Assembly (NCBI GenBank): GCA_029834535.1
Contig: JAQMWT010000525.1
Location: forward strand, 1-21,920
DNA length: 21,920 nt
Source of the DNA: Chrysophaeum taylorii
Taxonomy: Eukaryota > Sar > Pelagophyceae > Pelagomonadales > Pelagomonadaceae
Reading direction: 5' to 3'
This document shows, piece after piece, positions 1,796-21,920 of this stretch. The notes under the pieces are model-generated. The model did not search any database. It was not told the origin of the DNA and worked only from the letters and a program-made list of their open reading frames with translations. Positions within the stretch are counted from its first letter, which is position 1. Each line of letters opens with the position of its first letter. A program made the position numbers and the translations under genes.

Positions 1796-1892
1796 GTTTG
1801 TTTAATTGTTCGCTGCTCTCATGTACATTACACAAGTTCCGCCCTCAAGAGCGTCTGAAATGCATAAACCATTCTTTCACACGTTGAGGGGG
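1796..1892 (+). mobile_element. 3' internal end of a plus-strand copia copy, with polypurine tract
   Basis: This 97-bp segment is homologous to 3858-3960, the sequence just before the downstream LTR. Both contain GTTTGTTTAAT, GTTCGCTGCTCTCATGTA and CCGCCCTCAAGA, and both end in the purine run GAGGGGG (1886-1892), followed at once by the LTR start. It is the plus-strand primer region of a copia copy. The oppositely oriented LTR at 1398-1795 abuts its left edge, which suggests that the minus-strand element inserted into, or recombined with, this copy. Confidence 0.75.
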
Positions 1893-2102
1893 TCCAGAGA
1901 GCTACACTATTATGTGTACGACACTGGAACATCTCACTCCTTTCACACCTATCTCCACAAGAGGGTTTTCTCTCCGTAATACGGCTTTCCCTCTTTCCTT
2001 CCTTACCCCTTCCGCAATTACTTATTCATGACTATGAAGAATACAGTCTGAAGCTCTCTTCCAACATGGAGTAGGTCTCCAGGTGCGTACCGTCAGGTAC
2101 GG
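1893..2102 (+). mobile_element. Copia LTR, copy ii: left half, interrupted by an insertion
   Basis: It follows the polypurine tract and matches the first roughly 210 bp of the complete LTR at 3961. Homology ends just after GTACCGTCAGGTACGG at 2102. The missing remainder resumes at 3135, so the two pieces form one LTR split by the 2103-3134 insertion. With the LTR at 1398-1795 it makes an inverted repeat with a 97-bp spacer. Confidence 0.8.
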
Positions 2103-2125
2103 TGTCCTAACTACTAATCGACAGA

Positions 2126-2160
2126 TGTTTGTTTGTCTGTTTGTTTGTTTGTCTGTTTGT
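2126..2160 (+). repeat. TGTT/TGTC microsatellite
   Basis: A run of four-base units, TGTT with interspersed TGTC, covers about 35 bases near the left end of the insertion. Only simple-sequence character can be claimed. Confidence 0.85.
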
Positions 2161-2174
2161 CCCTCGATTTAGGG

Positions 2175-2220
2175 TAAGGATCAGGTAGGCGCGAGAGTAA
2201 GGATCAGGTAGGCGCGAGAG
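2175..2220 (+). repeat. Perfect 23-bp tandem duplication
   Basis: A 23-base unit beginning TAAGGATCAGG and ending GCGCGAGAG occurs twice in immediate succession (2175-2197 and 2198-2220) with no visible mismatch, so it is probably recent. It lies just upstream of the helicase relic. Confidence 0.9.
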
Positions 2221-2221
2221 C

Positions 2222-2760
2222 CAGACAGTGATCCTCCAAGCCGTCTACGGCGACCTCGCAGACTATTTCCACGACCCGCGGCGGCTCTTTCAGCGCGCCA
2301 TTCTCACGCCCCGTCGAAACGATGTTGTCGATGCTGACAACGCGCGCATGACCGCGGCCTTTTTTTCCCGGAGACGAGGCGTCGGAGTTCTTTTCGACTG
2401 ACTAGGCTGGGTCGGAAGACGACGCCTCGCTCTTTACAGTAGAGTTTTCAACTCCCTGACAACCAACGGCATGCTGACTTTGATCGCGAGCTTAAAGTCT
2501 TCGCAACCTCGACCCGTCGCACGGCCACTGCAACGGTACCAGATACATGATCGATCGTGTCCTGTCACCGAGGCTCCTCCAACCTGGATCCCTTAAGGCC
2601 CGCCGACGCCAAACGATCACCAAGAGCCAGGGCCAGACGCCCCGCGAGGTCGGCGTCCTCTTTCCCAAGCCCGTCTTCTGCCACGTCCAGCTCTACGTGG
2701 CTCTCTGTCGATCGGCAACCCCGAGGATAAACTCATCTGGGTCGACGACTCCACCCTACC
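2222..2760 (+). pseudogene. Helitron/PIF1-like helicase C-terminal relic
   Basis: Two separate frames together resemble the end of a Helitron Rep-Hel or PIF1-type helicase. The first (from 2222, stop near 2400) reads VYGDLADYFHDP and then QRAILTPRRNDVVDADN, like the family's RAILTPxNxxVDxxN segment. A weak FNSLTTNGM block follows near 2440-2475, resembling the NSLxPxGMPPH region. The second clear block (about 2610-2715, another frame) reads ITKSQGQTPREVGV and then LYVALCRS, matching motifs V/VI (NKSQGQTLxxVGV...GQLYVALSR). Several frameshifts and stops intervene, so it is not functional. It is GC-rich compared with the flanking LTR. Rep and the helicase N-terminal part are absent. Helitron is favoured over cellular PIF1 because it lies in a transposon cluster. 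Confidence 0.72.
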
Positions 2761-2812
2761 CCACACGTGCTGCGCAATACCGATAAGCCCCCTCCTGGCG
2801 TCTACACGCGCA

Positions 2813-3127
2813 CTGTAGGTGGACTTACTGGGACCAGGTGAACTTACTGGGGTTTGCGATTGGGACTAGGTGAAGTGAGTGACCAGGTGAAACTGGGACC
2901 AGGTGAGCATACTGGGGTTTTTAGAGTAAAGGGTTTTTAGAGTAAACTCAAAGGTTGGCGGCGCGTGCGGATCAAAGCAGCTTAGATTGGCGGAGGCGAG
3001 AGCGACGAGCTCAAAGGAGTGGGTGTGAGCTAGGTGAACTTCCTGACCAGGTGAACTTATATGAAACTTACTGGGACCAGGTGAACTTACTGGGGTTAGA
3101 GATTGGGACTAGGTGAACTTACTGGCC
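2813..3127 (+). repeat. Imperfect minisatellite based on GACCAGGTGAACTTACTGGG
   Basis: Variants of GGGACCAGGTGAACTTACTGG alternate with GATTGGGACTAGGTGAA. They occur near 2818-2900 and again near 3035-3125, with a related TTTTTAGAGTAAA doublet at about 2918-2946. Between them, about 2950-3030 is less repetitive. The array fills the right third of the insertion up to the LTR junction. Confidence 0.75.
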
Positions 3128-3134
3128 TGCACTT

Positions 3135-3316
3135 GTTTTCTGTTTAATTAACAGAGGCTTCGTTCCTCGTTGTCAGTGTAATCGCTTCTATGGGACTTAA
3201 CGTCGTTAAAGAGTTAGGGCCTAAATCCCTCCCTTGTGTAGTAGCATGTGACAAGCGGAATGGTCTGTACTGCACGCAGTCTCTACCATGTACCCGGAGA
3301 GGGTCAAATCTCTCCA
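3135..3316 (+). mobile_element. Copia LTR, copy ii: right half after the insertion
   Basis: From TTTTCTGTTTAATTAACAGAG to CAAATCTCTCCA this matches the second part of the complete LTR at 3961-4362 and the minus-strand LTR. It starts where the left half at 1893-2102 ends. It lacks about 11 bases, relative to both other copies, in the GGTCTGTAC...TGCACGC stretch. After its end the next bases are TGCCCAAGTAACC rather than the expected primer-binding site; they could be a site shortened by small deletions, but that is speculative. Confidence 0.8.
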
Positions 3317-3818
3317 TGCCCAAGTAACCGAGAACATCAAACATGTGGCGCTCTTAGATAATATACTATCAAGCTACCAAATGCACCAAGATACTATTAT
3401 ACCTACCCTTGCTGTCTTTGTTCACATAATCTCGCGATCGCTCATTTCGTCTATTGGACAGTTTCCTCCAAATACCTATGAAGAGGCACAGCAAACTCTA
3501 ATCGACGATACAGCTAATAACTTATATACCGCTATGTCTGATGCACAGGATCATGTTATTCCTGCAGCAGATTTGCATACTTTAACACCGGACGCAGCTA
3601 TGTCCTATCTATCTTCTGTCATGGCACCCCTGGTCGCCCTCAGTGGTGCTATCACTACAAACAATACTTCTAACGACCAACCCGAAGATCATGATTCTTC
3701 CTCTCCAGAATTAAAAGAACTTGAAGACAATAGTGATGATGAGTTGGACCACACATCTGATGTTGTGGATGCCGCTTCTCTACGCAATGTCACAACACGT
3801 CCAACTTCATCCTCCTAA
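3288..3818 (+). CDS. ORF in the short internal region between two copia LTRs, unknown product
   Basis: An open frame of 176 codons whose first ATG lies in the LTR. The first ten or so residues are LTR-derived and non-LTR sequence starts near 3317. The body is predicted helical with hydrophobic segments (for example IIPTLAVFVHIISRSLISS) and is followed by an acidic, Asp/Glu/Ser/Asn-rich tail containing ELKELEDNSDDELDH, ending in a Ser run. No RNase H, integrase or RT signature is visible, although the 3' end of a copia element normally encodes RNase H. It is followed by a T-rich 3' internal end and the polypurine tract. It could be the C-terminal remnant of an element-specific ORF or captured host sequence. 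Function unknown. Confidence 0.45.
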   Translation: MYPERVKSLHAQVTENIKHVALLDNILSSYQMHQDTIIPTLAVFVHIISRSLISSIGQFPPNTYEEAQQTLIDDTANNLYTAMSDAQDHVIPAADLHTLTPDAAMSYLSSVMAPLVALSGAITTNNTSNDQPEDHDSSSPELKELEDNSDDELDHTSDVVDAASLRNVTTRPTSSS

Positions 3819-3857
3819 AATTAATTGTTATGTTGCTTCTTCCTTTGTATTATTGTT

Positions 3858-3960
3858 GTTTGTTTAATCTGTTCTGTTCGCTGCTCTCATGTATCATACA
3901 CAAGCTCCGCCCTCAAGAACGTCTGAAATGCATAAACAATTATTTCACACGTTGAGGGGG
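3858..3960 (+). mobile_element. 3' internal end and polypurine tract before LTR copy iii
   Basis: Homologous to 1796-1892 with small differences (for example an extra CTGTTCT after GTTTAAT). It ends in GTTGAGGGGG, whose GAGGGGG (3954-3960) directly precedes the LTR start at 3961. That arrangement is the classical second-strand primer, and it sets the LTR boundary. Confidence 0.78.
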
Positions 3961-4362
3961 TCCAGAGCGCTACACTATTATGTGTACGACACTGGAACAC
4001 CTCACTCCTTTCACACCTATCTCCACTAGAGGGTTTTCTCTCCGCAATACGGCTTTCCCTCTTTCCTCCCTTACCCTTCCGCAATTATTATTTTCATGAC
4101 AATGAAGAATTAGTCTGAAGCTCTTTCCAACGTGGAGTAGGCCTCCAGGTGCGTACCGTCAGGTACGGGGTTTTCTGTTTAATTAACAGAGGCTTCGTTC
4201 CTCGTTGTCAATGTAAACGCCTCTATGGGACTTAATGCCCTTAAGGAGCTAGGGCTTAAATCCCTACCTTGTGTAGTAGCATGTGACAAGCGGAATGGTC
4301 TGCACACGCCTAAGACTGCACGCAATTTCTACCATGTACCCGGAGAGGGTCAAATCTCTCCA
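3961..4362 (+). mobile_element. Copia LTR, copy iii (complete, plus strand)
   Basis: About 402 bp from TCCAGAGCGCTACAC to CAAATCTCTCCA, the only uninterrupted plus-strand copy. It matches the split copy at 1893-2102/3135-3316 and, in reverse complement, 1398-1795. With the split copy it flanks an internal region of only about 640 bp, so the pair looks like a heavily deleted, non-autonomous element. Immediately after the LTR end comes RT coding sequence with no primer-binding site, so a deletion or recombination joined them. Confidence 0.82.
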
Positions 4363-4707
4363 CAAGCTGGAACCACTGCCGCCCGATCGTTCGTCCATCT
4401 CAACGAAGCTCGTGCTGAAGATTAAGTACTTTGCTGACAGCACTCCCGATCGCTATAATGCTCGCCTAGTTGCCCCAGGTTTCTTGGCACGTGTTGGCAT
4501 TGACTTCTATGCCACTTCCTCGCTGACCGCAATGCTCGCTACCAACCGACTGTTGCTCGCTATTGCAGAGAAGCATAAGCTCCCGGTCGCGCACGCGGAC
4601 ATTCCCCAGGCCTTCATCCAACCAGCGCTTGATCGCCCGGTCTGGATTGATTTGCCTCGTGGGATTCATGTGTCGCAGAACCTCATTCAGCAGATACAAC
4701 TCAAAGA
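4363..4707 (+). pseudogene. Ty1/copia reverse transcriptase fragment (N-terminal part)
   Basis: The frame following the LTR reads LEPLPPDRSSISTKLVLKIK, then RYNARLVAPGFLARVGIDF, LLLAIAEKHKLPVAHADIPQ and AFIQPALDRPVWIDLPRGIH. These align in order with the copia RT signature (LPPGRKxIGxKWVFKxK, RYKARLVAKGFxQxxGIDY, the D of MDVKTAFLNG, IYMxQPxGF). The usual Trp of KWVFK is Leu here. The Asp of the first catalytic motif is present (HADIPQAF). The second catalytic motif (YVDD) and everything downstream are missing: similarity ends near 4700 where GC-rich unrelated sequence begins. The fragment begins exactly at the LTR end, so both sides are truncated. Confidence 0.85.
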
Positions 4708-6398
4708 CAAAGACGCTACCGCCAGCATGTTCCGAAGCAAACGGAGATCGAGCTCGCGGCTGCCGAGGGCCGCGTCCTGGCCAAGGAGGAGGAGATCAAG
4801 CGGCGGCGGGGTCGCCGCCCTCGAGAAGCGGAACGCCGAAGTGTGAATCCCGAGGATGCCACCTGGCAAGGGATCCGGCAAGGGTGTGCCGTGGGAATCG
4901 AACTCAGGGCGCTGTGTATGAAACTGCTCGCCTCGCGGGTTGCGCCTTCGGAGATCCCCGAGGTTCTTGCCTCGGTTGTCGAGGTGGTCGTTGGCCCGGA
5001 GCGGGCGAGCGACATGGATCTCCCGTCCGAATGCTTCATTCGCGATCAGCGCTACGAGATGGGCGTCCTTCACGAGGCCGCCGCCGCCCTCGCGCTGGAA
5101 TACGGTAACGCCGTCGACGCGGCGACGGACGCGTCGCCGCTCGACGGCAACGACGTCGCGACCACCCACGTTCGCTTCAAACGTGCGAGACGGAGAACTG
5201 GACGCTCAGCGCGTACGAGATCTCCGACCAAAGGGCGGCGATCACCAATCGGTTCGGCGACCTGAATCGAACACTCCAGCTTATTCGTCCAAGTTCGCCA
5301 CGAGCGCTACGGAGCCGACGCTGCGACAGTTCTCGAGCGAGCGTAAGCTGCCAGGATTGAAAATCCAAAACTCGTCGCGACCGCCGAGTATGAACGAGGC
5401 CTTCGAAAACACCGAGATCGCCACGTACGCCGATTTCCTCGAGATGCGGGCCGGGTCGGCGAAGCTATTCGTCGACGGCCAGTCCACAATCCACGACGTC
5501 ACGGCGGTTCGGGCAAGTCTCTACTCTCCTGCGAATGATCCAGAGACAAGGACCATGCTCGACGCGCTCCGGGCCTGAGGCCGCGGCATGCGCCGCACGT
5601 TGGAGGGGGGGTAGTCTATGCGCTACGTTGGCGACGGCGACCTCGCGGCGATCAACCAGACGTGGGAGCTCCAGAGGGCCTTTAATGGCGCGCAGCGCAA
5701 CTCGAACTAGGTCGAGGGCGAGTTTGGCACCTTGAAATATTACCACGCTGCCTACTTCGACGTGGAGAGGTCTGAAGTAATTGGTTGGTCTACTTCGACA
5801 TGAGCGTCGAAGCTGCGCCGGGTCGTCTCGTGCCAACGAGACCATATCGTCGACTGCGCCGCCACGAGATTGGCGGCCAAGCGCCAGCGACGCTTCGCCG
5901 ACGAGGTCGGTGGTCGAACGACGACGAAGGCTAGTTCGAGTTGATGGTGGACGCCTCGCCACGCTCAGCGACGACGTTAAAGGAACGTTGATAGAGGCGG
6001 CTCGTCGTCGTTGGCAGAACCACAAGGCGCAGGCTGCAGCGCCGAGAGCACCATCGCCGTCGCGCCGCCGCGGCTGTCGAGAAGGCCCGCGAGCCCCAGG
6101 TGAACGACTATGCCAAGCCCCTGGAGGCCATGAAAGTCGAACCTGTCGTCGATGAGCATGCCCTCTTTGGGAGGACCCGGCTCCCGACGGACAAGTGGCG
6201 ACACGACGCGGCACTTAAGCGGCTCCCGAGCGACGCTGCGTGGACGCCCAGCGGGAAGACCAGGACAATAGCAGTGGCCCCATCGCGCAAAAGGCGAGGT
6301 CTAAACGCCCGCACGACCATCATTGGGCCCACGGACATTCCCGATGCGCCGGATGTTGTATTTGGAGCCGACGGTATCGTGCCGAGTAGTTCCACCTA
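4708..6398 (+). pseudogene. GC-rich decayed coding relic, possibly a DNA-transposon transposase
   Basis: Composition turns strongly GC-rich. Several plus-strand frames carry protein-like blocks that hop frame, as expected of a decayed gene. Block 1 (about 4733-5180) starts with a charged helix (TEIELAAAEGRVLAKEEEIK), then LASRVAPSEIPEVLASVVE, LPSECFIRDQRYEMGVLHE and DAATDASPLDGNDVATTHV. Block 2 (about 5290-5578) contains MNEAFENTEIATYADFLEM. Block 3 (about 5617-5780) reads YVGDGDLAAINQTWELQ and, after a stop, VEGEFGTLKYYHAAYF. The tail (about 6100-6398) contains VEPVVDEHALFGRTRLPTD. The DATDAS block and the EGEFG block could hold acidic residues of a DDE transposase, but I do not recognise the family and found no terminal inverted repeats. 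Minus-strand frames here are probably shadows. Confidence 0.35.
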
Positions 6399-7586
6399 GG
6401 GCGCTGCCTCCCCCGAGAGGCCAATATACCTCACCCCCATATGGGTTCTTCAATCGGTAGCTACCGACTTCGTTCCATTATAAAATCGGCATCATTTTAG
6501 GTCAGCTTGACGGCGGACAAAAAAAAAACAGCTAGTCGTTGGGGACTTTTGGCCCCGGCGCGGGACACCCCCGCGTTCCTCATCCGACCCTATCACTATA
6601 TAGATGAGGTGCAGAGAGCTACGCGCATATCTCGCGTTATCTCGAAGCACCAAACGTTCGGACTCCCGGTCCGTCGAGGCCACTCCTCTCCAGCCCTTCT
6701 CCTTTCTCTTTTGCACTTTGCCAGACACTTGAGTCCAGCGTCTTGGGCTTTTGCCATCAGATTAAACAGGCGTAAAGATGCAGTGTCGTGTTGTGTGCTG
6801 AAACAGTCATCTATGTCTCTCTACCCGTGTGAAAGCTCGCTGGTGCTACAGTCACCTGTGAACATATTTGACAGTAGCACGTGGTGAGGCGGATTTGTCT
6901 CATTCATCTTAAACCGCATCGTGGTCTCTCCCACCTCTGGATTTGAACGATATTATTTCTGGGTTCGCTAAAATAAAGCTTTAAGCTGCACAATAAGTCA
7001 CAGCTCGGTAAGGAACAGGTCTAAGGCAAGAGCCATTCGCCCTCAGCAAGTAATTATTGTATGATAGTAACACAAGCGACTACGGTGAATGCAACAGAAT
7101 TACGAACCCACGCGTGGTAAATGCGACCTTAACAGCGGGCAGATGATGCGCTTTCTTTCAGAAGGTCATCCTTTGCCTTAATTTTAAGTTGTGCCGCCTT
7201 CAAAGAGGCCATTGAGACTCAACCGCACTATCAGCCTCAAACTTTTCTAGATACCGACGTGTCAAAATCCATTGTCAAAAGCATGTGTTCTGCACGCAAG
7301 CTGGGTTGAACAGCGCCCCCACGTAGACACAACGCAGCATAACAAAAACAACGCCAACAACAACAGGCCAACTTCATGATCAATATGTCAGCGGGAAGCA
7401 AACGTTTGCCAACAGCTTAGTCTTTCGGGGAAAGTATAACCTTGACATCATAAACTTTTTCAGGATTTCGTAAGGCCCTGCACATAGCGTAAACTTGAAA
7501 GAGTTTCCTCACTTTAAAACCTCGGAAGCTACAGCGGCTTCTGTTACCCTTGAGACGAGGTGTGCAACTCGAGGCAAGAAACCAAG
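6399..7586. other. Intergenic stretch with no supported gene
   Basis: About 1.2 kb between the GC-rich relic and the 3' end of the minus-strand gene. GC content falls back. It holds an A-run at about 6519-6529, a GC hairpin-capable segment near 6556-6582 (GCGGG...CCCGC), and short frames without protein character. No tRNA, LTR or coding signature was seen. The part nearest 7586 must hold the 3' UTR of the minus-strand gene; no convincing AATAAA on that strand was found. Confidence 0.5.
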
Positions 7587-10500
7587 CTAGTGATCAAAGG
7601 GGTAGCAAACAAAGTCAGCGGAGCTGCCTACACAACACAATGAACACTTGGATGTGATAGAACAGAGCACCTCCACGATGCGAACGACAGCACGCATCAG
7701 AGTTTTTTGGGATATGCCGATTACAGAAGTATCCATGCCCATAAACAGACCGTAGTTTTCTAGCCGCTGCAGGGTCCTTGCAAAACTACAAACTTTCCGA
7801 ACTGATAGAAGATCGAGCGTCGAGGCATATGGCTGACAACGTTGCGCGATAATGGTAGGAAGCTGGCAGATAACATGAGACACCATCAAGCTCAAGATAC
7901 CCACAACATTAAGCCACACTAAGCTGATATCCGTTGTTTCTTCACGCGAAGCGAGATTATCCTTGCAAGCAAAGTCGACAATAGCCCACCCACGGGTGAC
8001 AGCGCGCTCTACAGATACTACATGAGCAGAAACAGAGGCAATCACAAACGAGTTTGCAGGTCCAAGAGGATGCCACCTGTAGTGCACCGTTGTTGATATC
8101 CCGACCAATGCCTGGATGGTAGATATGAATTGAATGGAATTGGAAACAAAACTACATCTTCGACCAGGCAAATCGCGCTCTCTAGCCTTGGTTGGCTGAG
8201 CACTAACCTCCTGCAAAGCGACTTGACCATCACCATTCCAAAAAGAACGCAGGAGGACCTTAGATGATGTGCTGGCAAGACAACTGAGAACCTGAACAAC
8301 AGAACTTGTCACTTGAATGAGTTCACTGGGGGAACTCCAAGAACGAGTACACGGAGTAGCTTCGAGTGAGCTTAAGACAAGAAGCCCCAAGATAGACTCT
8401 TGACTTCGTGCACCAGCGCACGAACACCATGCATAGCCGGAAAATGACGACGCTTTGAGTTGGGGAAAACCTAATGCTCGCGAACATTCGACTACCACAC
8501 GGCTGAAGTGACTTCGATACGCCTTGTTCCATACACAGCCAATGATGGCACTGTCAGGGCTGTGGTGTATATGGAGACCTAAAACGGAGTTGGCTTGCGT
8601 GCTCACCAAATATCATTCCATCGCATTGTGGCCTCAGTATGGCAGGGTTCATTTTTAACTCGAGCGCAGTGACACGCCAAGCATATTCGCCAGTAATGTG
8701 CGAGCAAGCTGATTGCGCGTCGGCTATCGCTCCGATCCTGCTTGGCACAAAGTCGTGTCATACCGAAACCGTATGATGTGATGCCGAGCACAGGATTTCG
8801 CATGAATGCACTCAACCCCACTGAGCAAACTGCCGCTCCAGCATGTTGTGCTGATTGAGTGCATCTCGAGATGTGACCATTGCACCAAGCTGCGGATTTA
8901 TGCAAGAAAACATGCGGCTGAATAGAAGTTGTGAGATTCGGGTCTGGCACTGGTAACAGGACATGTTCCAAGTCTGAAACGTGACAAAAACAGCATCTTC
9001 TGAAGCGAGGAGACCAACGATCAAGGACACAATAATCATCATTGAACGTGCCGAGCCATAATCCGTGCAGAATAACACATTCACCAACACACGCTTTTGC
9101 GCCGTGCACGAAACTGCGCTCGTTGGCCAAGGTGAGACTGGAGTGATTCCTCCAACTGCAGTGGCTCCACCGCTCATAAACGTCAAACGATAAGCCTCGC
9201 CTCTTCGAAAATCGCCGCGTCACCTCACGGATTACACACAATGCAACGTAACGGAACTTTGCCAGTGTTTCCTACGCGCATCAAAATACAACATGCTTCG
9301 GTCTGGTCATAACTCTGGAGATGACCATATTTACCAGCTGGCAGTCTGATGAAAACAATACGGAAATCAGCTGAATTTCATCAGGTAAGTCTCTTTCCAG
9401 TGCTGCATGACTCTCTGTACTTAATATTGACAACGCGAATAACTTGTATGTAACGAATGCAAGACAGCGTGCTCCATCCACGCCACACGGTAAAACAAGC
9501 GAGAGAAACAAGAGTGAAGTAGCATCACATCGCCAAGATTCAGATGAGATAGACAGAAGGTCATGCGTCCTGATTGCCTTCTTCCTATTCCACAGTCTGC
9601 TACAAACACACAAGTCAGCCTGGGATTTCCCCGCTGGCGCATGAACACAGAAGTCAATATCGTGTTCTAGGCAAGAGATTACAACCCGCGCCGATAAACC
9701 ACGTAAGCGCGCTAACAACGCACCCATCAAGCAAGCTATACTTTGACCTGTGAGAAACATTATAACCGCGGGAGAGACTAACTTACTAGATTTACAGTCA
9801 ATGCAGAAGTTGGGGAGAATACATGCACTCTGAGCGGAGTTTTGGACAGCGACAGTACAATCCCAGTTGTTGCACACAGGTAAAATTGGGTTTATCAACT
9901 GACGCGCCTCTCTTGGACCACATAACTGCATGCCTTCGGTTGTATGTGCATGAAAAGTATTGCAAAATATCCTGAAACACTCGTTGAAAGCGTGCTCACC
10001 ATCCACAGCCATTTTTTCGCGGTGAGGGATAGTTTCCTGATTGACAGTTTCCTGATTGATCGATGCAATGTGAGTCAGGACGATAGCACGATCGATTTCA
10101 CCATTTCGAACGTAGCTCCAAACACCTTGAGCGAGCAGCATTGTGAGTGTGGACCGCACTGATCCAATTAAGTTGCATATCGGGCGATTGCATACCCAGC
10201 ACTTTACCGGAATCGACCCGTTTACACTCCAGACACGACACAAGACTAGGCATTGCACTCTCTGCAAAGATCGCATAATGCTGTACCATAATTTTGGTGC
10301 CTCAGCGTTTGCGCAAACTGACAACCTTGTCTGACCCACAACATGGAAAACTGACTGCACAAACGCAGTGAAGACGGACAATAGTGAACGCACTGCACTC
10401 TTCCTTCTTGATGATTTTCCAGTCTCGATTGCACTCCCGAATAAGCGAATAGCAGTGTCCACACCTTCAAGAAACAGCATGCCAGAATTGTTCAGTGCTA

Positions 10501-11809
10501 GGAATGCTGTTAGCGCGCCACGCGAAAATTGAACATTTGCCAAGGTTGATGTTACAGCAGCATGACGATGATGTTCAGGGACGTGAGCAAATTCTTTAGA
10601 AAAAAACGAGGTCACAGCGCGTATGACGCACCAATATAGTCCAGGAAAGCCGATGTGTTCGTGAGCTGCACTCTTCGCGGAGAGGAGCAGTCTTACCGAC
10701 GCGATAACTTCACACCGTAGAGGGTATGCCGCAGCAACAAGTGTACACAAACACATGTTACCTAGAACCTCAAGCTCTGCGTCTCCTGCCTTTGAACGCG
10801 TCTGAACACGATCTAACCTCGGACAAAGGCATGTGATTTTACAACGAAAATGCAAGAACACAGCAGTCTCAATGAGGCGGGCTGCAACTATGATACTCTG
10901 GTGATAGTAGCGGCCCCACGATTGAGCCAGGATTGCCATCAAGGAAGATACAAAAGCGCTCACATCACGCCAGTCATTTTCACCAGCACAGTCACTAGAG
11001 AGGTCACCAGCGCATAAGGCGAGTTCATAGAGCAACTCACAGGCCACACGAACCACACCATGTGCATAAAATCTATATGCATTGCGCTTGGAACATGTAC
11101 TGGCGAAAATCATGTCGCGCAACTGTCCGCAAATTCCTCTTGACAAAATATACCACAAGTTCCAGAGAAAACTCTTGTGCTCATGATGAGCAGGCTTGAG
11201 TTTGTCGGTTCGCGCGTGGGTATGAGGCTTGACAAACCCCGAAGGACCCAAAGAACTGCACGCGAATTTTTTGAAGTGGTACGTAGGCACTTCGGCTGCT
11301 GCTTGCAACAAAAGTCGTGAGCCGCAAAGAGTTCGAAAGTACCGCAAAACAGAAAAACGTTTGTGGCGTCTCATCACCATCGCATCTATAGCTTCGAGTA
11401 GGGTAAACCGACTTCGCGCCGTGCACTTGTGGATAAACAGGCTGGTTAAAGCCGCCACGGCTTCCCTGCAGACTATTTTGTCATGTCGAAAAATGAACCC
11501 AACTTCCATGAAGATACTGAGAAAGTGATTGACACAAACTTCGTGCACAGCATACTTTTCAGAGGCCCGGCTTGCGAATATCACACACAATCGAATAAGC
11601 CCCACTATTTTATCTGCCTCAGCTGGCATGAAGGCACGAGGCACATGTACAATAGCGGAAACCGTGTGAATCAATACTTGCTCTAGTGCTTTCGCGATTG
11701 AGTGGAACAAGGTGGTTGAGAGGATTGTACTATTCCGCAAACATTGCAGAACACCGGATTGATTGCCAACACACAACATCGACGCGTCATTTTCATGAGA
11801 ATCGTCCAT
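7587..11809 (-). CDS. Large minus-strand gene of about 1,370 codons with two short introns, unrecognised
   Basis: Proposed exons on the minus strand are 11809-9335, 9271-8607, and 8550 (or 8559)-7587. The first ATG (11809, context AAAATGGAC) follows an in-frame stop at 11842-11840; the stop is TAG at 7589-7587. The three open blocks are long, collinear and separated by short gaps with GT-AG borders that restore one frame, giving 1,367 or 1,370 residues. The protein is rich in alternating hydrophobic helices, Cys, His and Ser, like a helical-repeat (HEAT/armadillo-type) scaffold, but no domain signature, signal peptide or catalytic motif is recognisable. Its length, uninterrupted 825-codon first exon and lack of transposon motifs suggest a host gene, in contrast to its neighbours. 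The alternative is three separate frames, less likely because the joins work so well. Function unknown. Confidence 0.68.
8551..8606 (-). other. Predicted intron 2 (56 nt; alternative 47 nt)
   Basis: On the minus strand the donor TTG|GTGAGC interrupts the second exon just before its stop, and the acceptor CCCTGACAG| lands in frame with the third exon (phase 2). A second acceptor nine bases upstream (CACCACAG|, intron 8560-8606, 47 nt) also keeps frame, differing by three residues. The TTTTAG further upstream would bring in a stop. The strong donor and frame restoration support the call. Confidence 0.6.
9272..9334 (-). other. Predicted intron 1 (63 nt, phase 0)
   Basis: On the minus strand the donor CAGCTG|GTAAAT and acceptor GCGCGTAG|GAAACA bracket 63 bases containing two in-frame stops (TGA at 9283-9281 and TAG at 9274-9272). 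Removing it joins two blocks that are already in the same frame. A possible branch region TTATGAC lies inside. If unspliced, the protein would end at 842 residues. Confidence 0.62.
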
Positions 11810-12854: not shown

Positions 12855-12960
12855 GTGCTGTTTTTACAGCGACAGATAGCGTTGTTGGAATCAACGTGAA
12901 TTACTTCGAGTGATCGGATCCGGACGTGTTTCGAGATTCTTGATCGATATTTAATACGGT

Positions 12961-15133
12961 ATGGAGATAAACGCAGACGTTCGTGAGGAAGAATCTCCTC
13001 CAGTTCTTCCCGCCGCCCTTGAGATAGGCCGCGAGGAGGTGAATTAAGAGAGGCCGAGGCAGTCGACGTTGCTGACGTGCCCCCTGATGTGCCTCCGGAT
13101 ACTGCCATTTTTTCGCCGTTGAGTCCAACGACTCCGGATCGTGGCGAGCGTGTTACTATTGAGCGCGGATCTGCAGCCCGAAGTCGACTTCGTGAAGACC
13201 TCGAGCGGAGACGTCGCGAAAATGAACGATTAGCTGAGCTTTTTGCTCGTGAAAGGGCTGATGCGAAAGAGGACGCGGCTCGACGAGAAGTTGATATGCT
13301 CAATGATGCATTACAGCAAGAGACTGAGACCTCGAAGACCCTACGCGAAGAGGTTGAGCGATTTCGTCGTGAACGAGATAAATTGTTAGCCGAACGTACG
13401 CGTCGGGAGAGTAGCCGCGAACGACCCGTGAGTCGACCCGAACCGGAAACGCCCGTGAGGCCGCCTGAACCGGAAAGGAACACTGAAACGGGGAATGAAC
13501 CTCCGCCCCGAGTCGATACGGAGAATGAGGGTAGGGCGGACATTGAGAATGAAAGTACGAAAATTTTACGGGAATTATCGCGGGGAATATCGCAGACGGT
13601 TGCCAACGCCTTCGAAAAGGGCAACTTGAGCCGATCCCATCGACCCACTTCCAGTTTGAAGCCTGATACCTTCAAACTCGTCATCGACGGCCGAGACCAA
13701 CGGCAATTCAATTTGGATTCGGCGGCGATGATGCATACTTTAGCAGATGACCATTACTCGGTCGAGAAATTACGTTATTTACTACCTGTGCATCACCGGG
13801 ACACCGTTGCACCAATTTTTGAGGAACACTTGCAGAAATACGAGGAGCTCTGCGATGAGCTACCACACGGTCGGTCGTTTTACTTGAAATTAGATATTGA
13901 CGATGAAGAGCATAGAGTCTCGGTTCGTCGTATCCGTCGTCTTAACAAGACGTATTGCGACAGGATTTTGGATTATTTTAGATCGACTTGCCGACCTCCA
14001 CGCACGCAGCAGGAGGTGCTTGACAAGCTGCGGAAGGTCACCCAGGCTTCAGTTCCGAAGAAGTCTGGGGAGCGGCACGTCCAAACGTACTGTACCCGAT
14101 TCCAATCTGAGGCCTTGGAGTTTTGTTCCGTGTCCAGCCGCACGATGGATGATGTCAATATCCTCGACCAGCTTATCCGTGGATTGACGTCCAAGGAGTT
14201 GAGGACCCGTGTGCGGACTATGAGGAGCGGACATCCTGATAGTTACGTGACTTTTAAGTCGATGGTAGCGCTAATTACGCGGCTCGAGAACGACTTACGG
14301 AAGTTGATGGAGGAGGAGAAGGACCAAGGCCCACCTAATCCGAAATCGAATAAACCGCCGCGAGGGCGGGGAGTTCGAGCTATGGCCTCCGATCAACAAG
14401 CCAAGCAAGATGCGGATAAACCGTCTGGGAATACGGATCCGCTGATTTTACGAGATCCTTTTTTGTGGGGCAAGAGAACGTGCCCGCACTGTGGGTTCTT
14501 CTGGACCACCCATGATGAAGATGAACACGGAAATCGCGTAGTTTGCAACCGCGATCCGGATCGTTACTACTGTGCGATGTGGAAGCGAATTCGTAAGCAG
14601 AAGAAGCAGCCCATATCGCGGTCCGAGTGGGCAAAGCGTGATGATGCATCTAATGCGAACGCCACGCACGGATCGGAGCCTTTAATGAAATTCAAACGGC
14701 CCTCGCCGATCTTGGAACCACCATGGCGAGCGAGGTCAGAAGCATCAAGGATACTACGTTGTTTTCTACACGACAGCGAGACGGACGATCACCTTCTAGA
14801 CGATCGTCACGCCGACATCGAAGCCAGAGCCCTAATCGAAAAGCCCATACTGCTCAAGACAGCCCGAGTCCTTGCCGTCACCGGAGCTCTAGTCGCAATT
14901 CGCGCCGGCGCCGACGTCATCGACATTACGATGACGAGTATGACGGAGGTAGATATCAGGATAGTTCGGGACATTCGAGCGCATCTTTCGCGTTCCAATC
15001 TTTATGCGACGCGCCGCCAATGTCGGGGGTTGTCTTTTACCCGACGGCGCGCCCTGCCCGAGTCTCCGATGATGTTGCCGATGTCGCTGTGACGAGCAGC
15101 CATCGTTTGCAACAGGAGCAACATAACATATAA
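12961..15133 (+). pseudogene. Ty3/gypsy element G1: Gag with coiled coil, CCHC-like finger and RS-rich tail, frame-shifted
   Basis: The ATG at 12961 (GGTATGG) opens a 28-codon frame that ends at TAA 13045. A second frame (open from 13023 to TGA 15090-15092, no early ATG) carries the bulk. A third frame, used from about 14654-14700 to TAA 15131-15133, carries the C-terminal tail. In order: acidic Pro-rich N-terminus; a long charged coiled coil (about 13180-13410, RLREDLERRRRENERLAEL); a capsid-like helical region (about 13660-14300) with TYCTRFQSEALEF and LDQLIRGLTSKELRTRVRT, typical of Ty3-type Gag; a CX2CX6HX4HX5C finger (about 14472-14545); then ALADLGTTMASEVRSIKD and an Arg-Ser-rich tail. 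Each frame change is -1. They may be mutations or sequencing errors, and the last could be programmed. Gag packages the element RNA in the cytoplasm. Confidence 0.72.
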
Positions 15134-16490
15134 TAACATAACATATTGGTGGCCTTCTACATCGTATGTGGAAGCAATGTCAGATGCTACTTGGGATTCT
15201 CCGCACTACTGGGAAGACTCAGATTCGGAGACTGACGAACCCATGCCGCAGGTTCCAGTGTTCCCCCATTCGTCAATGTGCATGTCTTGCAGGGCAGTTC
15301 ACGATGATGACGTTAGACCTTTCGAGTTGACGTCGGGGACGACGTCTTCTTTTCCTACGGGGCCCCCCGAGACCGTTTTAGCCGTTTTAGCCGATGTTCT
15401 AGCCGATACCGTTTTAGTCTCAGCAGAGCAGACCACAGCGGCGCCGGTGGAGGAGAAGTTGACGGGAATGTCCGATTTGATGGACGAGAAACGACGATTA
15501 CCAGAAGTGCCTATGCTTCCGCTTCCAACTGATGCGCCGGGGACGGCTCATGTTTTTTCTGCTGGGCCCCCCCGACAATCAAAAGTGGACTTTCCGCCGG
15601 ATCCTGAACCTGAACAGGAGCCGAAAGTAAGGAGCGAGCCGAATGTGCGCGTCAAATATGAAAAGATCAATAAGAGCCACCCTGAGGTGAGGTTCAAATA
15701 CGAAGAAAAGTTCGATGTGCCATGGAAGGATGCACCGCGCGATGTGGACGGTGTACCGTTACCGCAGATTCCCGAGCACGTCGAGGACAATGATGCGATG
15801 AAAGTCGTAATTCCGGCGAAGGGAGAAGTTGAGAAGGTTGTTCGAGATCTAGGAATTCCCGACAACCCGCATCTGGATGATGATGCGAAGATGATGTTGA
15901 GCCATTGCGTGCAATGCGCGTGGGCTTTCTTTGATCCGATTATGACACCCGTTGACTCGCCACCGGTTTCTTTGCGCTTTGAAGACGCAAACCCACGACC
16001 GATCAAGATGACGCCCTATAGGTTGACGCCAGCAAAGCTCGAGTGTCTCAGAAAGCCGATCACTGAGTGGTGTCGCGATGGAGTCATCCGACCGGCGAAC
16101 TCTCCGTGGGGATTTCCTGTACTGATGCTGCCTAAGAAGGGAGCCGAGGCCGGGACGTCGAATGCTTTTCGTGCTGCCGTTGACTTGCGTCAGCTCAATG
16201 ATCAGCTGGTCAATGACAGTTGGCCGAATATTCGTCAAGATGATGCTTTGGCTTTTCTTGCCATGCGCCGTTGGCGGACGTGCATTGATATTCGATGGGG
16301 TTATCATAACTTGCGTTTGGACGCCGCTGCTCAGGACGCTGTTACGATGGTTAGTCCACTTGGAGCCCATAGTTTCTTGCGCTTGCCTCTAGGAGTGAAA
16401 ACCGCAGGAGCTCTCTTTTGTAAGCAGATGGCTAGCGATTTGTCCACATGGATGTATAAGGACTTGGTCGCGTTTGTCGACGATATTAGT
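15093..16490 (+). pseudogene. Ty3/gypsy element G1: Pol fragment with first part of reverse transcriptase
   Basis: The frame is open from 15093; the first ATG is at 15177. The first 180 or so residues are acidic and Pro/Glu-rich with a short repeat encoding AVLADVLADTVL. A pre-RT block (from about 15715, FDVPWKDAPRDVDGVPLP) is shared with element G2 at about 19950. RT follows: PYRLTPAKLECL, RDGVIRPANSPWGFPVLMLP, FRAAVDLRQLN, the first catalytic Asp in CIDIRWGYHNLRL (near 16287), SPLGAHSFLRLPLGVKTAG, and the second catalytic pair in FVDDIS (16476-16484). These are Ty3/gypsy-type motifs with catalytic residues intact. Homology stops right after FVDDIS and sequence of another element begins, so thumb, RNase H and integrase are missing. 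No protease is seen between Gag and RT. Confidence 0.85.
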
Positions 16491-17020
16491 GGCGGCCAGT
16501 ACAGCGGGTTGGTTATGTTACCGACTCGGGATTTGGAACCTGGCTACCACAAGTGATAGATACCAATGCGCGTCAAGCAATTACGACCTGCCTTAGTTGC
16601 GGCCGGCATGGTAGTTTTTACCACGACAACGGTGTGTGTCCTGTGCCGGACAATCCCTCGAGGAACAGACGTGCTGCTCAGACGTTCACGAATGCGGGTT
16701 TTCCAGCGACGCCAGAGGGACAGGAGCAATACCGACGGGCGCTTTTAGCTGCAGCAGGGCTAGCTTCAGTGACTCAGCTAGCGCCGCGCGTTCTGCAACC
16801 GCCGCAGGTGGTCTACACAGCAGCATAGGTTCCAGGTGCAGGTCAACCGCAGCTTGTTGCAGGCACTCAACAGCAGGTGGTCCGAAGGCAGCCCGCAGTG
16901 CTGCGGACCGCTCAGACCTCGGTGCGCCTGGAGGATCTGACTACGGCTCTCAACACGATGAACTTGCTTCGTCAAGCACAGCAGACGGCTCCGACGGTTA
17001 GAGGCCGCAGAGAGCAAACC
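16490..17020 (+). pseudogene. Ty3/gypsy element G2: Gag C-terminal part with zinc finger, one in-frame TAG
   Basis: This begins at the junction with G1 (in-frame stop at 16487-16489). It contains a CX2CX7HX4C finger (CLSCGRHGSFYHDNGVC, about 16588-16640), an Ala/Gln/Pro-rich linker, and a TAG at 16826-16828, after which the same frame continues with a Gln-rich stretch and RLEDLTTALNTMNLLRQAQ. The TAG sits in a CAG/GCAG-rich context, so one base change from CAG is likely. The frame then stays open to 17290, but the protein-like sequence moves to the -1 frame (protease ORF, open from 17002). The capsid region of this Gag is missing, removed at the junction. Confidence 0.62.
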
Positions 17021-18645
17021 CTAGCCAGCGCAATGATGGTGTCGCCGCTCAGTGGCTTGAAGTGCTTGGTGAAGACCAGGATTACGCTAAGCGAGCGGAC
17101 TACTGCACTGGGCAGTATTCTGAGCTCATGGAGGGCAACGTGTATGACGGTGACGATGACGATGTTGGAGGCGATGATGATAGCTTCTCCGCAGAAGGCT
17201 ATTCCCCTGGTGACCCCATGGAACCTCCTTCCTTTTTGGTCATCACTGAAGATGCGTGGGTGGAGAAGCAGGGGCAAAGTACCGAAGTGACCGGAGTTGC
17301 ACCCAGAGTTCCCTCGGAAGATGAAGATAATCGTGACGGATTGGGATATACGATCGTTCGTGTGGGACAAGATATCTTTGTTGCTATGGATATAGTGCCA
17401 CCGAGGGACGACTGCGCCGAGCGTTGCGCCGCTCACCCTTCCATCTCTTCGGAGTTCGAGAGTTTCTGCCCTCAGACTGCGTTGAATACCACTCAGGATC
17501 CCGACCATCGTGAAAATAAAGCCGTGAGGTACGATGGCACGAGATCCGCCTCTTTGACGTATGTGCCTGTGGCTGTCTCTTCGCTATATGGTTCGACATA
17601 TTCCATCATCGCTGCCGGTTTGGATGGCATGGCTGATTCCCCCTACATCGACCACCGCTTGTATCGCAAACTTGATCATGACGGCAAAATCATCTATCGT
17701 CAGCCACTCCCTACGATTCGTACTCTGAATGGGTCAGGAGGTTCGGGAGCTGCTATTCGAGAATGGGTCATTCTCCGGATCTCTTTGGTGCCAACGACAT
17801 CCATACTGCTCATGTTCTTTGTTGGTCAAACTAATGGGCAGTTACTATTAGGAGCACGAGAATTACGACTCTTGGGTACGATTTTGGATTATGCAACAGA
17901 GAGAGCTATTTTCCGGCGGTCTGAAGTGACCATCGGAGTTCTCGATAATCGGACTTCTGCCTCGCCACAAGACCATCATGGAGTTGTCCTTTACAATGAT
18001 GCATTCGATGCGACTCCGCAGGTAGTGCAGATGTTCCCGACAGCTAAGCTCGCTATACAGTACGGGAATATCCAAACTTGGACGCCAGTTGGTAAACCGT
18101 GGAGTTATGACAGTCTGCTGCGCTCTATTCGTGCCAGGGCGAATCACCATTATGCTCATCGCGGTGAACAGACTGCTGGAAAAGCGGAAGACCAACTTAA
18201 ATGCCCTGCAGACGAGGAAGATATCATCCCTCATTTCGCGTATGTGACGAGTACTCGATTTCTTCTTCCAAGCCAACCGTACTTCTTGGAGATGGAGTGC
18301 GATGTGCCGCTGGAAAAGGGCCGAGCATTTCGGCCTCATCGGTCACTCCTCCCATATCTCCGCCTCGTACCTGGCTCCTATTCATCGTATTGCTCCGACG
18401 AGCCCAACGAAGTTCATGTGGCTGTGGAGCACATTGGTGACGAACCCATGGGTATCAACCCCGAAGTCCCGGTGGTCGAAGGCGAGATCATGCCGCATGA
18501 CGGATGTGTCAACATGCAGCTAGGAGCCAGTGATGACGTGTGTCATGCAACTCTTACGGCTGCTGTTGACGACGATGAAGTCGAGGAGGATGTATTGAGT
18601 GACAGACCTCCTCCTCAGCCACCTCCAGATGAAGAAGTGAAATAA
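17002..18645 (+). CDS. Ty3/gypsy element G2: retropepsin-like protease region of Pol
   Basis: Frame open from just after TAG 16999-17001 to TAA 18643-18645, overlapping the Gag frame by -1. The N-terminal 180 or so residues are acidic (GDDDDVGGDDDS). A retropepsin-like fold follows: hydrophobic strand then LDGMADSPYID (catalytic Asp codon 17623-17625), a Gly-rich flap-like stretch (LNGSGGSGAA), and LLLGARELRLLGTILDY (about 17842-17892), which matches the usual ILGxDFLxxxxxxxD. The standard D-T/S-G-A is D-G-M-A here. The C-terminal part (about 18220-18500) has the layout of the beta-rich segment that follows protease in many retroelements (LLPSQPYFLEMECDVP, then VAVEHIGDEPMGI). It ends in DRPPPQPPPDEEVK. 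The next ATG lies 9 bases after the stop, in the same frame. Confidence 0.68.
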   Translation, partial: RPQRANPSQRNDGVAAQWLEVLGEDQDYAKRADYCTGQYSELMEGNVYDGDDDDVGGDDDSFSAEGYSPGDPMEPPSFLVITEDAWVEKQGQSTEVTGVAPRVPSEDEDNRDGLGYTIVRVGQDIFVAMDIVPPRDDCAERCAAHPSISSEFESFCPQTALNTTQDPDHRENKAVRYDGTRSASLTYVPVAVSSLYGSTYSIIAAGLDGMADSPYIDHRLYRKLDHDGKIIYRQPLPTIRTLNGSGGSGAAIREWVILRISLVPTTSILLMFFVGQTNGQLLLGARELRLLGTILDYATERAIFRRSEVTIGVLDNRTSASPQDHHGVVLYNDAFDATPQVVQMFPTAKLAIQYGNIQTWTPVGKPWSYDSLLRSIRARANHHYAHRGEQTAGKAEDQLKCPADEEDIIPHFAYVTSTRFLLPSQPYFLEMECDVPLEKGRAFRPHRSLLPYLRLVPGSYSSYCSDEPNEVHVAVEHIGDEPMGINPEVPVVEGEIMPHDGCVNMQLGASDDVCHATLTAAVDDDEVEEDVLSDRPPPQPPPDEEVK

Positions 18646-18654
18646 ACACCAGAA

Positions 18655-19416
18655 ATGGAGATGGAGGCGACCGCCAAGGAGCTGCTATCTAAGCACGCCT
18701 CCTTGGTTTGTTTACCCATCACCTACACCTTTGTCGTCGTCTACTTTGCTGGCGCTGGAGGATCAACGCTGGGTATCCGGCGATGCAATGAGCTATATGG
18801 CAGTTCATTTCGCATTGTCCTGGCTTTGGATGCTTGTCCTCAAGCCCGAGCCACCTTTGAGCTCAATTTTCCGAAGATTCCCTATGTTTTGCATGAGTTG
18901 GGGGAATCTCATCGTCGTACATACGACTTGGTGTCGTCGTATTTACATTCAGATTTTTGGAAGCATTCTTATTTTCATGCCAGTCCGCCGTGTATCTATG
19001 GGTCGACAGCCTATTTGCACTACAGGGACGCACGCAAGGGCGCTACTATTACTTCTTGGGTCCTGCGTCATTTCCGCAACGCACCTCATGTGATTGGCCG
19101 ATGGACACTCGAGCAGGAACCATCAGTGGTCCCTTTCGTGCATCACCAATTTTATGTGCCGCGTATTGTAGATTTCTATAGTATCACACCAGAGTTGCTG
19201 TGCTCGCGCACGCGCCTACTTGCGTGCAATGTTCGCTTGAACCTGCCGTTATTATCGCGTGTACCACCGAATTTAAGGGACCGTATTGGGCCAGCGTTGG
19301 GATTTACAGGTGGTCACCCGCTCATTATAGTGAACAGTTTCTCATCTACGCGCCCAGCTATCGGCCCTGCCATCACAGTGACGCGCAATAAGCTCCACCT
19401 AGGACCTCATTTCTAG
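18655..19416 (+). CDS. C5-cytosine DNA methyltransferase domain in Ty3/gypsy element G2, copy 1
   Basis: 253 codons from ATG 18655 to TAG 19414-19416. Methyltransferase motifs in order: motif I FAGAGGSTLG (residues 31-40, SAM binding); motif II acidic residue in LALDACPQA (Asp59) followed by ATFELNFP; motif IV ASPPC (109-113, catalytic Cys113); motif VI-like WTLEQ (150-154, Glu153 for ENV); motif VIII-like SRTRLLA (184-190). The ASPPC and W-x-L-E form resembles bacterial, phage and retroelement enzymes. Motifs IX/X are missing here but lie just past the TAG in the next ORF, so the domain is cut by a stop. The family transfers a methyl group from SAM to cytosine C5. It lies between protease and RT, in frame with both. 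A role in methylating the element's own DNA is inference. Confidence 0.86.
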   Translation: MEMEATAKELLSKHASLVCLPITYTFVVVYFAGAGGSTLGIRRCNELYGSSFRIVLALDACPQARATFELNFPKIPYVLHELGESHRRTYDLVSSYLHSDFWKHSYFHASPPCIYGSTAYLHYRDARKGATITSWVLRHFRNAPHVIGRWTLEQEPSVVPFVHHQFYVPRIVDFYSITPELLCSRTRLLACNVRLNLPLLSRVPPNLRDRIGPALGFTGGHPLIIVNSFSSTRPAIGPAITVTRNKLHLGPHF

Positions 19417-20472
19417 AACACCCGTCCACTCACGTTGCAGATGCACCAGGAAATTATGACCGTTCCTGCTACGTGGCAATGGGGTGAGACAGTTTCAGAG
19501 ACAGCAGATATGAAGATGCTTGGCAGTATGGTGCCACCCGCGACTATGACGCGGATTGCGCTCGCAGTGCACAATTCGTTTGACCCTTCACTTCGAAATT
19601 TGGGTAAGTTGCGGAATATTGCGACGACTACGCTAGCCCAACCTGATCACCATATTCACCGGTTTTCTCCTTTTGCTGTAGAGTCGCGCATTCCAACGTT
19701 CGACCCTGCCACTCGAAGTGTGTCATGGATTGCGCCCGATGAACTCTATTCTCCTGCGAGTCATGCACCATCAGCTGCTGCCCCCACCACCCCGCCACCT
19801 CCTTCCGTTACATCGCCTGGGACGGCTTCATCTTTTGCAGGGGACACCGTCGCCACTGCTGTTATGCAGAGCAACCAAGTCGACAACCAGCCCTCCGCAA
19901 CTGCTGAAGAAGAAGGCACCGCGAAAGAGCGACCAGCGTATTTCAATAAGTGCGACGTTCCGTGGGCGGACGCGCCTCACGACGAACATGGTCAACCTTT
20001 ACCGGTGATGCTTCCTCATTTAGCGGGACAGGAGAGCATGCAGGTCATCCCTCCGACCGTCGCGCAGGTCGAAGAGGTGATAACTGAATTGGGCATTACA
20101 GAGCATCCTGCTTTAGGTGATGACGAGAAGCTGATGATGAAGCATTTAGTCTCGTATTCGTGGGCATTTTTCGATGATGTGATGAGACCTGTTGATTCGC
20201 CTGAAGTGACGCTCCGGTTAAAAGAAAAGAATCCGACTCCCGTCAAACTCTCGCCATATCGGTTGTCGAAAGAAAAGAGTGAATGTGTGCGGATGCAGAT
20301 TGAAGCGTGGACCCGAGACGGAGTTATTCGTCCCGCGAATTCTCCATGGGGGTTCCCTATTTTGATGTTGCCTAAGAAAGGTGCTGAGCCTGGCACTTCC
20401 AATGCTTACAGAGCAGCTGTCGACCTACGGCGCCTCAATGCATTGCTCAAGGATGATAGCTGGCCGGTGTGA
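19417..20472 (+). CDS. Element G2: methyltransferase C-terminal motifs fused to pre-RT and RT N-terminus, copy 1
   Basis: Same frame as the methyltransferase, open from the TAG at 19414-19416 to TGA 20470-20472; first ATG 19441. It begins with PLTLQMHQEIMT...PATWQW, resembling the motif IX region (LTxxExxxLQGFPxxW), then MLGSMVPPATMTRIALAV (19516-19569), resembling motif X (GNAVPP). These complete the methyltransferase. A Pro/Ala/Ser/Thr-rich linker follows, then the pre-RT block VPWADAPHDEHGQPLP and RT N-terminal motifs PYRLSKEKSEC, RDGVIRPANSPWGFPILMLP and YRAAVDLRRLN. It breaks off after DDSWPV, before the first catalytic Asp, at the tandem-duplication junction. It is closely related to G1 in the pre-RT/RT part. 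Confidence 0.82.
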   Translation, partial: NTRPLTLQMHQEIMTVPATWQWGETVSETADMKMLGSMVPPATMTRIALAVHNSFDPSLRNLGKLRNIATTTLAQPDHHIHRFSPFAVESRIPTFDPATRSVSWIAPDELYSPASHAPSAAAPTTPPPPSVTSPGTASSFAGDTVATAVMQSNQVDNQPSATAEEEGTAKERPAYFNKCDVPWADAPHDEHGQPLPVMLPHLAGQESMQVIPPTVAQVEEVITELGITEHPALGDDEKLMMKHLVSYSWAFFDDVMRPVDSPEVTLRLKEKNPTPVKLSPYRLSKEKSECVRMQIEAWTRDGVIRPANSPWGFPILMLPKKGAEPGTSNAYRAAVDLRRLNALLKDDSWPV

Positions 20473-20517
20473 TCACCTCAGCCACTTCCAGATGAAGAAG
20501 TGAAATAAACACCAGAA

Positions 20518-21192
20518 ATGGAGATGGGGGCGACCGCCAAGGAGCTGCTATCTAAGCACGCCTCCTTGGTTTGTTTACCCATCACCTACACCTTTGTCGT
20601 CGTCTACTTTGCTGGCGCTGGAGGATCAACGTTGGGTATCCGGCGATGCAATGAGCTATATGGCAGTTCATTTCGCATTGTCCTGGCTTTGGATGCTTGT
20701 CCTCAAGCCCGATCCACCTTTGAGCTCAATTTTCCGATGATCCCCCATGTTTTGCATGAGCTGGGGAAATCTCATCGTCGTACATACGACTTGGTGTTGT
20801 CGTATTTACATTCAGATTTTTTGAAGCATTCTTATTTTCATGCCAGTCCGCCGTGTATCTATGGGTCGACTGCCAATTTGCACTACAGGGACGCACGCAA
20901 GGGCGCTACTATTACTTCTTGGGTCCTGCGTCATTTCCGCAACGCACCTCATGTGATTGGCCGATGGACACTCGAGCAGGAACCATCAGTGGTCCCTTTT
21001 GTGCATCACCATTTTTATGTGCCGCGTATTGTCGATTTCTATAGTATCACACCAGAGTTGCTGTGCTCGCGCACGCGCCTACTTGCGTGCAATGTTCGCT
21101 TGAACCTGCCGTTATTATCGCGTGTACCACCGAATTTAAGGGACCGTATTGGGCAGCGTTGGGATTTAAGGTGGTCACCCGCTCCATTCTAG
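20518..21192 (+). pseudogene. C5-cytosine DNA methyltransferase domain, copy 2, frameshifted at the C-terminal side
   Basis: Nearly identical to copy 1 for about 210 residues, with motif I (FAGAGG), the Asp of motif II, catalytic PPC, WTLEQ and SRTR all retained. Differences include Ala-to-Ser after CPQAR, Lys-to-Met in NFPK and Ser-to-Leu in DLVSS. A one-base deletion near 21150 (GGGCAGCG for GGGCCAGCG) shifts the frame into a stop at 21190-21192 after WSPAPF. It shares with copy 1 the TAA and 9-base gap before its ATG. Confidence 0.82.
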
Positions 21193-21920
21193 TGACCATT
21201 TCTCATCTACGCGCCCTGCTATCGGCCCTGCCTCACAGTGACGCGCAATAAGCTCCACCTAGGAATCAATTTCTCGAACACCAGTCCACTCACGTTGCAG
21301 ATGCACAGGAAATTATGACGTTCCTGACGTGGCAATGGGGTGTGACAGTTTTCAGAGACAGCAGATAGAAGATGTTTGGCAGTATGGTGCCCCCGCGACC
21401 ATTACGCGGATTGCGCTCGCAGTGCACAATTCGTTTGACCTTTCACTTCGAAATTGGGTAAGTTGCGGAATATTGCGGACGACTACGCTAGCCCAACCTG
21501 GTCACCATATTCTTCCGGTTTCCACTTTCGCGGTAGAGTCGCGCATTCCAACGATCGACCCTGCAACTCTAAAGGGTGGCCTGGATGTCGCTGATGAACT
21601 CCATTTCCCGGCGAGTCATGCACCTCAGGCTGCCCCCACCACCCGCCACGACCTTCCGTTACATCGCCTGGGACAGGGGCTTCATCTTTTGCAGGGGGCT
21701 ACTTCAGCCACTGCTGTTATGCAGAGCAACCAAGTCGACAACCAGTCCACCCGCAACTGCTGAAGAAAGAAGGTACCGCGAAAGAGCGACCAGCGTATTT
21801 CAATAAGTACGAAGTTCCGTGGGCGGGCGCGCCTCACGACGAACATGGTCCAACCTTTACCGCTGATGCCTCATCATTTAGGGGTCAGGAGAGCATGCAG
21901 GTCATCCCGTCCGAAACGTC
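21193..21920 (+). pseudogene. Copy 2 methyltransferase C-terminal motifs and pre-RT region, degenerate
   Basis: Homologous to about 19330-20060 but split over frames by single-base indels. The codon corresponding to the copy-1 stop reads TCG (TTCTCGAAC) instead of TAG. One frame still shows VADAQEIMTF and TWQWG (motif IX region); another shows PATITRIALAVHNSF. The Pro/Thr-rich linker is out of frame, and the pre-RT block starts at the window edge. Non-coding as read. Confidence 0.72.

Follow-up and report, generated by a model that had tools for sequence, protein, structure and literature searches.

The Pol polyprotein of a Ty3/gypsy LTR retrotransposon family, referred to as family A in this text, holds a C5-cytosine methyltransferase (MT) between protease (PR) and reverse transcriptase (RT). 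One defective, rearranged copy of this abundant family is located in the window, i.e. the whole 21,920-nt stretch of Chrysophaeum taylorii DNA that was analysed. The capture of an MT inside a Ty3/gypsy Pol, between PR and RT, had been proposed in an initial annotation of this DNA; it is supported by open-frame copies, by Pfam, NCBIfam and PHROGs profiles and by purifying selection on the domain. Neither of the two results named in the annotation as refuting it was obtained: relatives match C5-methyltransferases significantly, and further genomic copies join the domain to PR and RT. The MT was almost certainly captured with a selected function.

Family A and its copy in the window

The family A piece occupies positions 16488–20475 of the plus strand (blastn, 94% identical to 3083–7083 of locus L041) and comprises the end of gag, PR, MT and the start of RT. 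The element is thus present where it had been annotated (17002–20472), but its extent had to be corrected and the copy is rearranged. As had been noted, the three parts lie in one reading frame: the ORFs 17062–18642, 18655–19413 and 19435–20469 share a frame that is split by TAA 18643 and TAG 19414, and the last ORF closes at TGA 20470. The first of them holds a retropepsin-like region and a spacer and has no Pfam match; its retropepsin-like core was delimited by alignment at 17536–17985 (LDGMADSPYI at 17620–17649, then LLLGARELRLLG). The N-terminal and middle part of the MT domain fills 18655–19413, with motif I (YFAGAGGS, 18742–18765), motif IV (SPPC, 18982–18993), the motif VI glutamate (19111–19113) and motif VIII (SRTRLL, 19204–19221). 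Motifs IX and X follow in frame at 19417–19587, beyond the TAG as previously described, and align with the C-terminal PF00145 stretch (profile 260–321) of L041 and L042. These residues were read from the alignment, and the motif names (I, IV, VI, VIII, IX, X) are those that we take to apply.

After motifs IX and X, the third ORF runs into the beginning of a Ty3-type RT (SPYRLS at 20251 onward, 20251–20469), recognized by homology to L040, whose RVT_1 match begins at residue 1068. The RT motifs reported earlier are therefore present only as an RT start: the piece is cut before YxDD, and the ORF has no Pfam RT match at E up to 10.

A query with the MT protein matched at least 157 family A MT pieces in the 70.8-Mb assembly of the same genome, a number that includes copies split in two as well as two or more places of another family (family C, see below). 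The longest open frames measure 2129 aa (L039) and 2115 aa (L040). The L040 frame is a single natural one that reads PR motif, MT, RVT_1, RNaseH, H2C2 and rve (the rve match being under its cut-off), and gag occupies its own ORF upstream; among solved RTs, that of Ty3 comes closest (2.8e-64, PDB search). This Pol order, with a Ty3-type RT, is that of a Ty3/gypsy element. The genome-wide search for PR-MT-RT copies that the initial annotation had suggested showed PR motif, MT and YxDD in one open frame at 4 of 14 loci checked (L039, L040, L042 and L051), so that the linkage is not due to chance; by the same pattern check, the set is incomplete or broken up at the other ten. L051 is the one element for which TG..CA LTRs and a short target duplication were found: two 331-bp LTRs, 96.4% identical, with TCAC flanking both sides. 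When L001–L052 and the window were searched with this LTR, six more loci matched (L029, L041, L042, L044, L045 and L050), and the window did not at E up to 1e-10.

The protease deserves a separate comment. Its active site reads DGMA, invariant in the three A/C sequences aligned (window, L040 and L047 of family C); in L053, which belongs to a third family (family B), it reads DGGA. The canonical form is DTGA or DSGA, and 17536–17985 was assigned to the retropepsins by motif. Families A and C lack the D-T/S-G signature, and no Pfam protease model matches ORF 17062–18642. The core that had been called retropepsin-like is there, but the unusual site and the missing profile match count against an ordinary active protease. 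With RT, integrase and LTRs present, families A and C are still gypsy-like.

The neighbours of the window copy are themselves rearranged. Downstream lies a tandem second partial copy extending from MT to the region before RT (20476–21914, plus strand; broken MT at 20518–21273), which is 93% identical both to window 18613–20056 (self-blast) and to L041 5233–6676 (blastn). Upstream, a family C piece on the plus strand (12936–16488; blastn to L047 6500–3932, then 1379–390) carries gag and part of RT, with an RVT_1 match under the cut-off (E=1.2e-4), and lacks PR and MT; 7 bp in it (15501–15507) match both sides of the junction. The broken frame, the missing LTR match and these rearranged neighbours indicate that the window copy is dead and chimeric. 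There are three sudden same-strand joins, at 15501–15507 (C to C, PR-MT being lost), 16488 (C to A) and 20475/20476 (A to A). They have the appearance either of template switches made during reverse transcription or of joins made in assembly. Farther upstream, a family B Ty1/copia RT fragment (4363–4698, plus strand, 82% identical to L054) lies in an ORF with an RVT_2 match (4283–4843, E=3e-14). Direct and inverted repeats of about 190–410 bp with 88–91% identity are found near these copia remnants (1398–4362), and the minus strand has an ORF of 842 aa at 9281–11809 that has no Pfam match at E up to 1.

Identity of the domain and selection on it

The check proposed in the initial annotation, a profile search against DNA_methylase (PF00145, curated cut-off 22 bits), left the window MT (E=0.0012) and its tandem copy (0.00039) under the cut-off and was significant for their open-frame relatives: L041 with 33 bits, L042 with 30.7 bits and L040 with 28.2 bits. 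L041 and L042 are 95–96% identical to the window MT, L040 about 83%. Each of the three has two PF00145 stretches, the printed one covering motifs IX–X in L041 and L042 and motifs I–II (profile 7–71) in L040. PF00145 was the sole Pfam family at E up to 0.001 in all 15 aligned A/C domains (best 9.3e-10), which represent 14 distinct copies (L041 and L010 being one and the same) and were picked from 26 open A/C frames, three duplicates included. The PHROGs DNA methyltransferase families agree with this assignment, as does NCBIfam TIGR00675, although under its cut-off. Against all PDB sequences, the MT profile matched two entries within E up to 1; each is a cytosine-specific methyltransferase and each match is weak (0.052 and 0.69), the better one aligning with the profile at both ends. 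None of the hits to the MT domains in these PDB profile searches (E up to 1) was named DNMT3.

Families A and C display motif I, the catalytic PC, the motif VI glutamate, RxR and motifs IX–X. The catalytic cysteine of SPPC and both arginines of RxR are conserved in 38 of 38 distinct A/C copies and the glutamate in 37; three copies have changes or gaps in motif I, and ten have a stop inside the MT. Motifs IV and VI, as first annotated, hold their catalytic cysteine and glutamate, but they are not of the usual form: motif IV reads SPPC-I, so that the Gln of PCQ is missing, and motif VI reads EQE, without the Asn and Val of ENV. Both deviations are unusual for an active enzyme. When protein databases were searched, with scoring of the 8000 candidates that had most words in common, neither the window MT nor the MT region of the L040 polyprotein had a relative. 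Contig scans for relatives were negative as well (viral and prokaryotic contigs with query A1, viral contigs with A2), and a fold model from the two window MT copies had a pLDDT of 27 and gave no fold support.

The domain is under constraint. Its dN/dS is 0.092 in family A (L041 against L040; 95% 0.063–0.132, bootstrap), 0.065 within family C (0.041–0.095; 92 of 100 bootstraps usable) and 0.222 within family B (0.165–0.297), where the stretch used extends beyond the MT. These three of seven pairs were repeated with bootstrap; the remaining four gave 0.092–0.186. The MT is less constrained than the RT of family A, for which we obtained 0.030 (0.015–0.060; 68 of 100 bootstraps usable, dS saturated). 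The ratios were 0.19 for gag-PR (saturated) and 0.20 for the stretch after the MT, while the comparison of A with C was saturated and gave no usable ratio. Together, the low dN/dS and the retained catalytic residues argue for an enzyme, which is probably catalytically active.

Families B and C and the number of captures

Family C (L047 and L048) is a second gypsy family, whose MT is related to that of family A (38–39% identical). Of 1088 candidates for this family, 111 scored as matches, and its frames reach 3067 aa. One of its loci consists of two adjacent pieces, L056 with PR motif and MT, and L055 with the order RT-RNaseH-integrase.

Family B is represented by 105 matched MT pieces, some of them from one copy. 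ORF L053 contains LIDGGAS followed by an MT whose PCQ and ENV are canonical; downstream of it, a region to which Pfam gives no score presumably is a copia-type integrase, by its motif. The overlapping L054 encodes a copia RT (RVT_2, 2.7e-29), which makes family B a Ty1/copia family with the MT likewise between PR and RT. PR motif and MT motif I lie about 230 residues apart in L053 and about 380 apart in L040. The position of the family B MT downstream of PR fits a Pol-tied use rather than an accident. PF00145 matches all five aligned family B domains, all of which keep PCQ and ENV, and the protein database search, again among the 8000 candidates sharing most words, found one weak relative (E=0.088).

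A single origin of the A/C and B domains was considered: hhalign gave a probability of 0.1% and hmmsearch no mutual affinity, though both profiles are shallow. The A/C and the B profile each recognise the generic C5-MTase P0001, which was originally found with the B profile, so that its B match is not independent. From these comparisons, the A/C and B domains are likely separate captures. It is possible, and we put it forward tentatively, that copia and gypsy elements independently acquired different C5-MTases between PR and RT, both now at about 100 or more pieces, and that this convergence reflects a particle-packaged cDNA methyltransferase that would generally counter host defence. On contigs C10 and C297, the matches to families B and C have equal scores and nearly the same coordinates; perhaps these contigs are alternative haplotypes.

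Possible role, known elements and other methyltransferase loci

We moderately favor a Pol-borne C5-MTase that acts on element cDNA before or at integration. The enzyme would be produced as part of Pol, packaged together with RT and integrase, and would methylate the double-stranded cDNA prior to or at integration; the methylated new copy might then resemble host DNA or enter a tolerated chromatin state. It is from the location in Pol that we suspect packaging of the enzyme and its action on cDNA, a scheme also proposed for SymbioDIRS (PMC5890265). That the element's own cDNA is the main target is somewhat short of an even bet. The copies themselves give no clear sign of heavy methylation, since CpG is not depleted among 29 aligned copies (observed/expected about 1.0 in eight of them) and there is no consistent excess of CpG transitions: per 1000, C to T changes amount to 8.7 at CpG against 14.6 at CHH, and G to A changes to 24.1 at CpG against 10.6.

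The readings considered here overlap one another, and their probabilities do not sum to one. An active MT could chiefly target the host genome or sister copies in trans, and thereby shape host methylation or limit its own copy number. Comparable effects are discussed for Symbiodinium in PMC5890265, and the abundance of matched MT pieces in this 70.8-Mb genome (157 for family A, 105 for B and 111 for C) would suit such a role; given that the element loci examined lack CpG depletion, we regard it as quite unlikely. Less easily set aside, though still on the unlikely side, is an MT that has drifted from DNA methylation to the methylation of RNA, whether genomic RNA or primer tRNA, or to mere nucleic acid binding. 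RNA methylation was suggested in PMC5890265 for the DNA-inactive SymbioLINE enzyme, and the altered PCQ and ENV of families A and C point the same way, whereas their invariant cysteine and RxR and the intact PCQ and ENV of family B do not. Finally, the broken and chimeric window copy could be taken to mean that the MT is a neutral passenger, or that its linkage arose by chance or as an assembly artefact. The low dN/dS of all seven pairs (0.065–0.222) contradicts a passenger domain, and with PR-MT-RT linked in open frames on separate contigs this whole explanation is highly improbable. Action on element cDNA remains the reading that we prefer.

Retrotransposons with MTs are known, and the arrangement is less novel than first supposed. 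A gypsy Pol with DNMT3 has been published from Klebsormidium (PMC5890265), and Copia and DIRS elements carrying DNMT3 are mentioned in PMC12344493. What stands is the PR-MT-RT order: in our literature search, chiefly of open-access text without figures, we came across no published conventional LTR element with a C5-MT placed between PR and RT. KnitGypsy-Dnmt3 of Klebsormidium nitens is similar in having a C5-MT domain in the gypsy Pol ORF and in being under purifying selection (Ka/Ks below 0.2), but it carries DNMT3 and, by the figure legend, DIRS-like repeats, unlike the ordinary LTRs (one element) and the lack of detectable DNMT3 affinity found here; the main text of PMC5890265 does not mention a protease. 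SymbioDIRS-Dnmt3 and SymbioLINE-Dnmt, also MT-carrying and present in hundreds of copies, belong to the DIRS and LINE classes with a tyrosine recombinase or an endonuclease instead of a DDE integrase (PMC5890265). The LTR Copia element of PMC12344493 shares its superfamily with family B, but carries DNMT3 and comes from streptophytes or dinoflagellates; it is named there in a single sentence. DIRS elements can also carry Dam-like MTases, to which PMC5890265 and PMC6338049 refer; these likewise are accessory domains of retroelements, but are adenine MTases and structurally unrelated according to PMC5890265. The same paper reports that retroelement DNMTs methylate CG de novo, while the tested SymbioLINE enzyme did not.

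With our results, the range of retrotransposons that carry an MT comes to include conventional LTR elements of both the gypsy and the copia type, apparently in another host, with the enzyme at a similar Pol position in both and under constraint. The value of cDNA methylation for the survival of LTR elements is a question that remained after the 2018 paper (PMC5890265), and repeated capture within one genome makes this benefit testable.

The assembly also contains other C5-MTase loci. Locus L001 on contig C634 is a full-length C5-MTase gene, which by its motifs we presume to be DNMT2-like; L002 encodes a larger C5-MTase. On the strand opposite L001 lies a gene for a light-harvesting protein (best PDB matches VCPI-6, FCP8 and peridinin-complex proteins), which suggests a chlorophyll a/c alga. 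The GC content is 61% at the C634 locus against 50–54% at the element loci, a gap that may reflect a mixed assembly.
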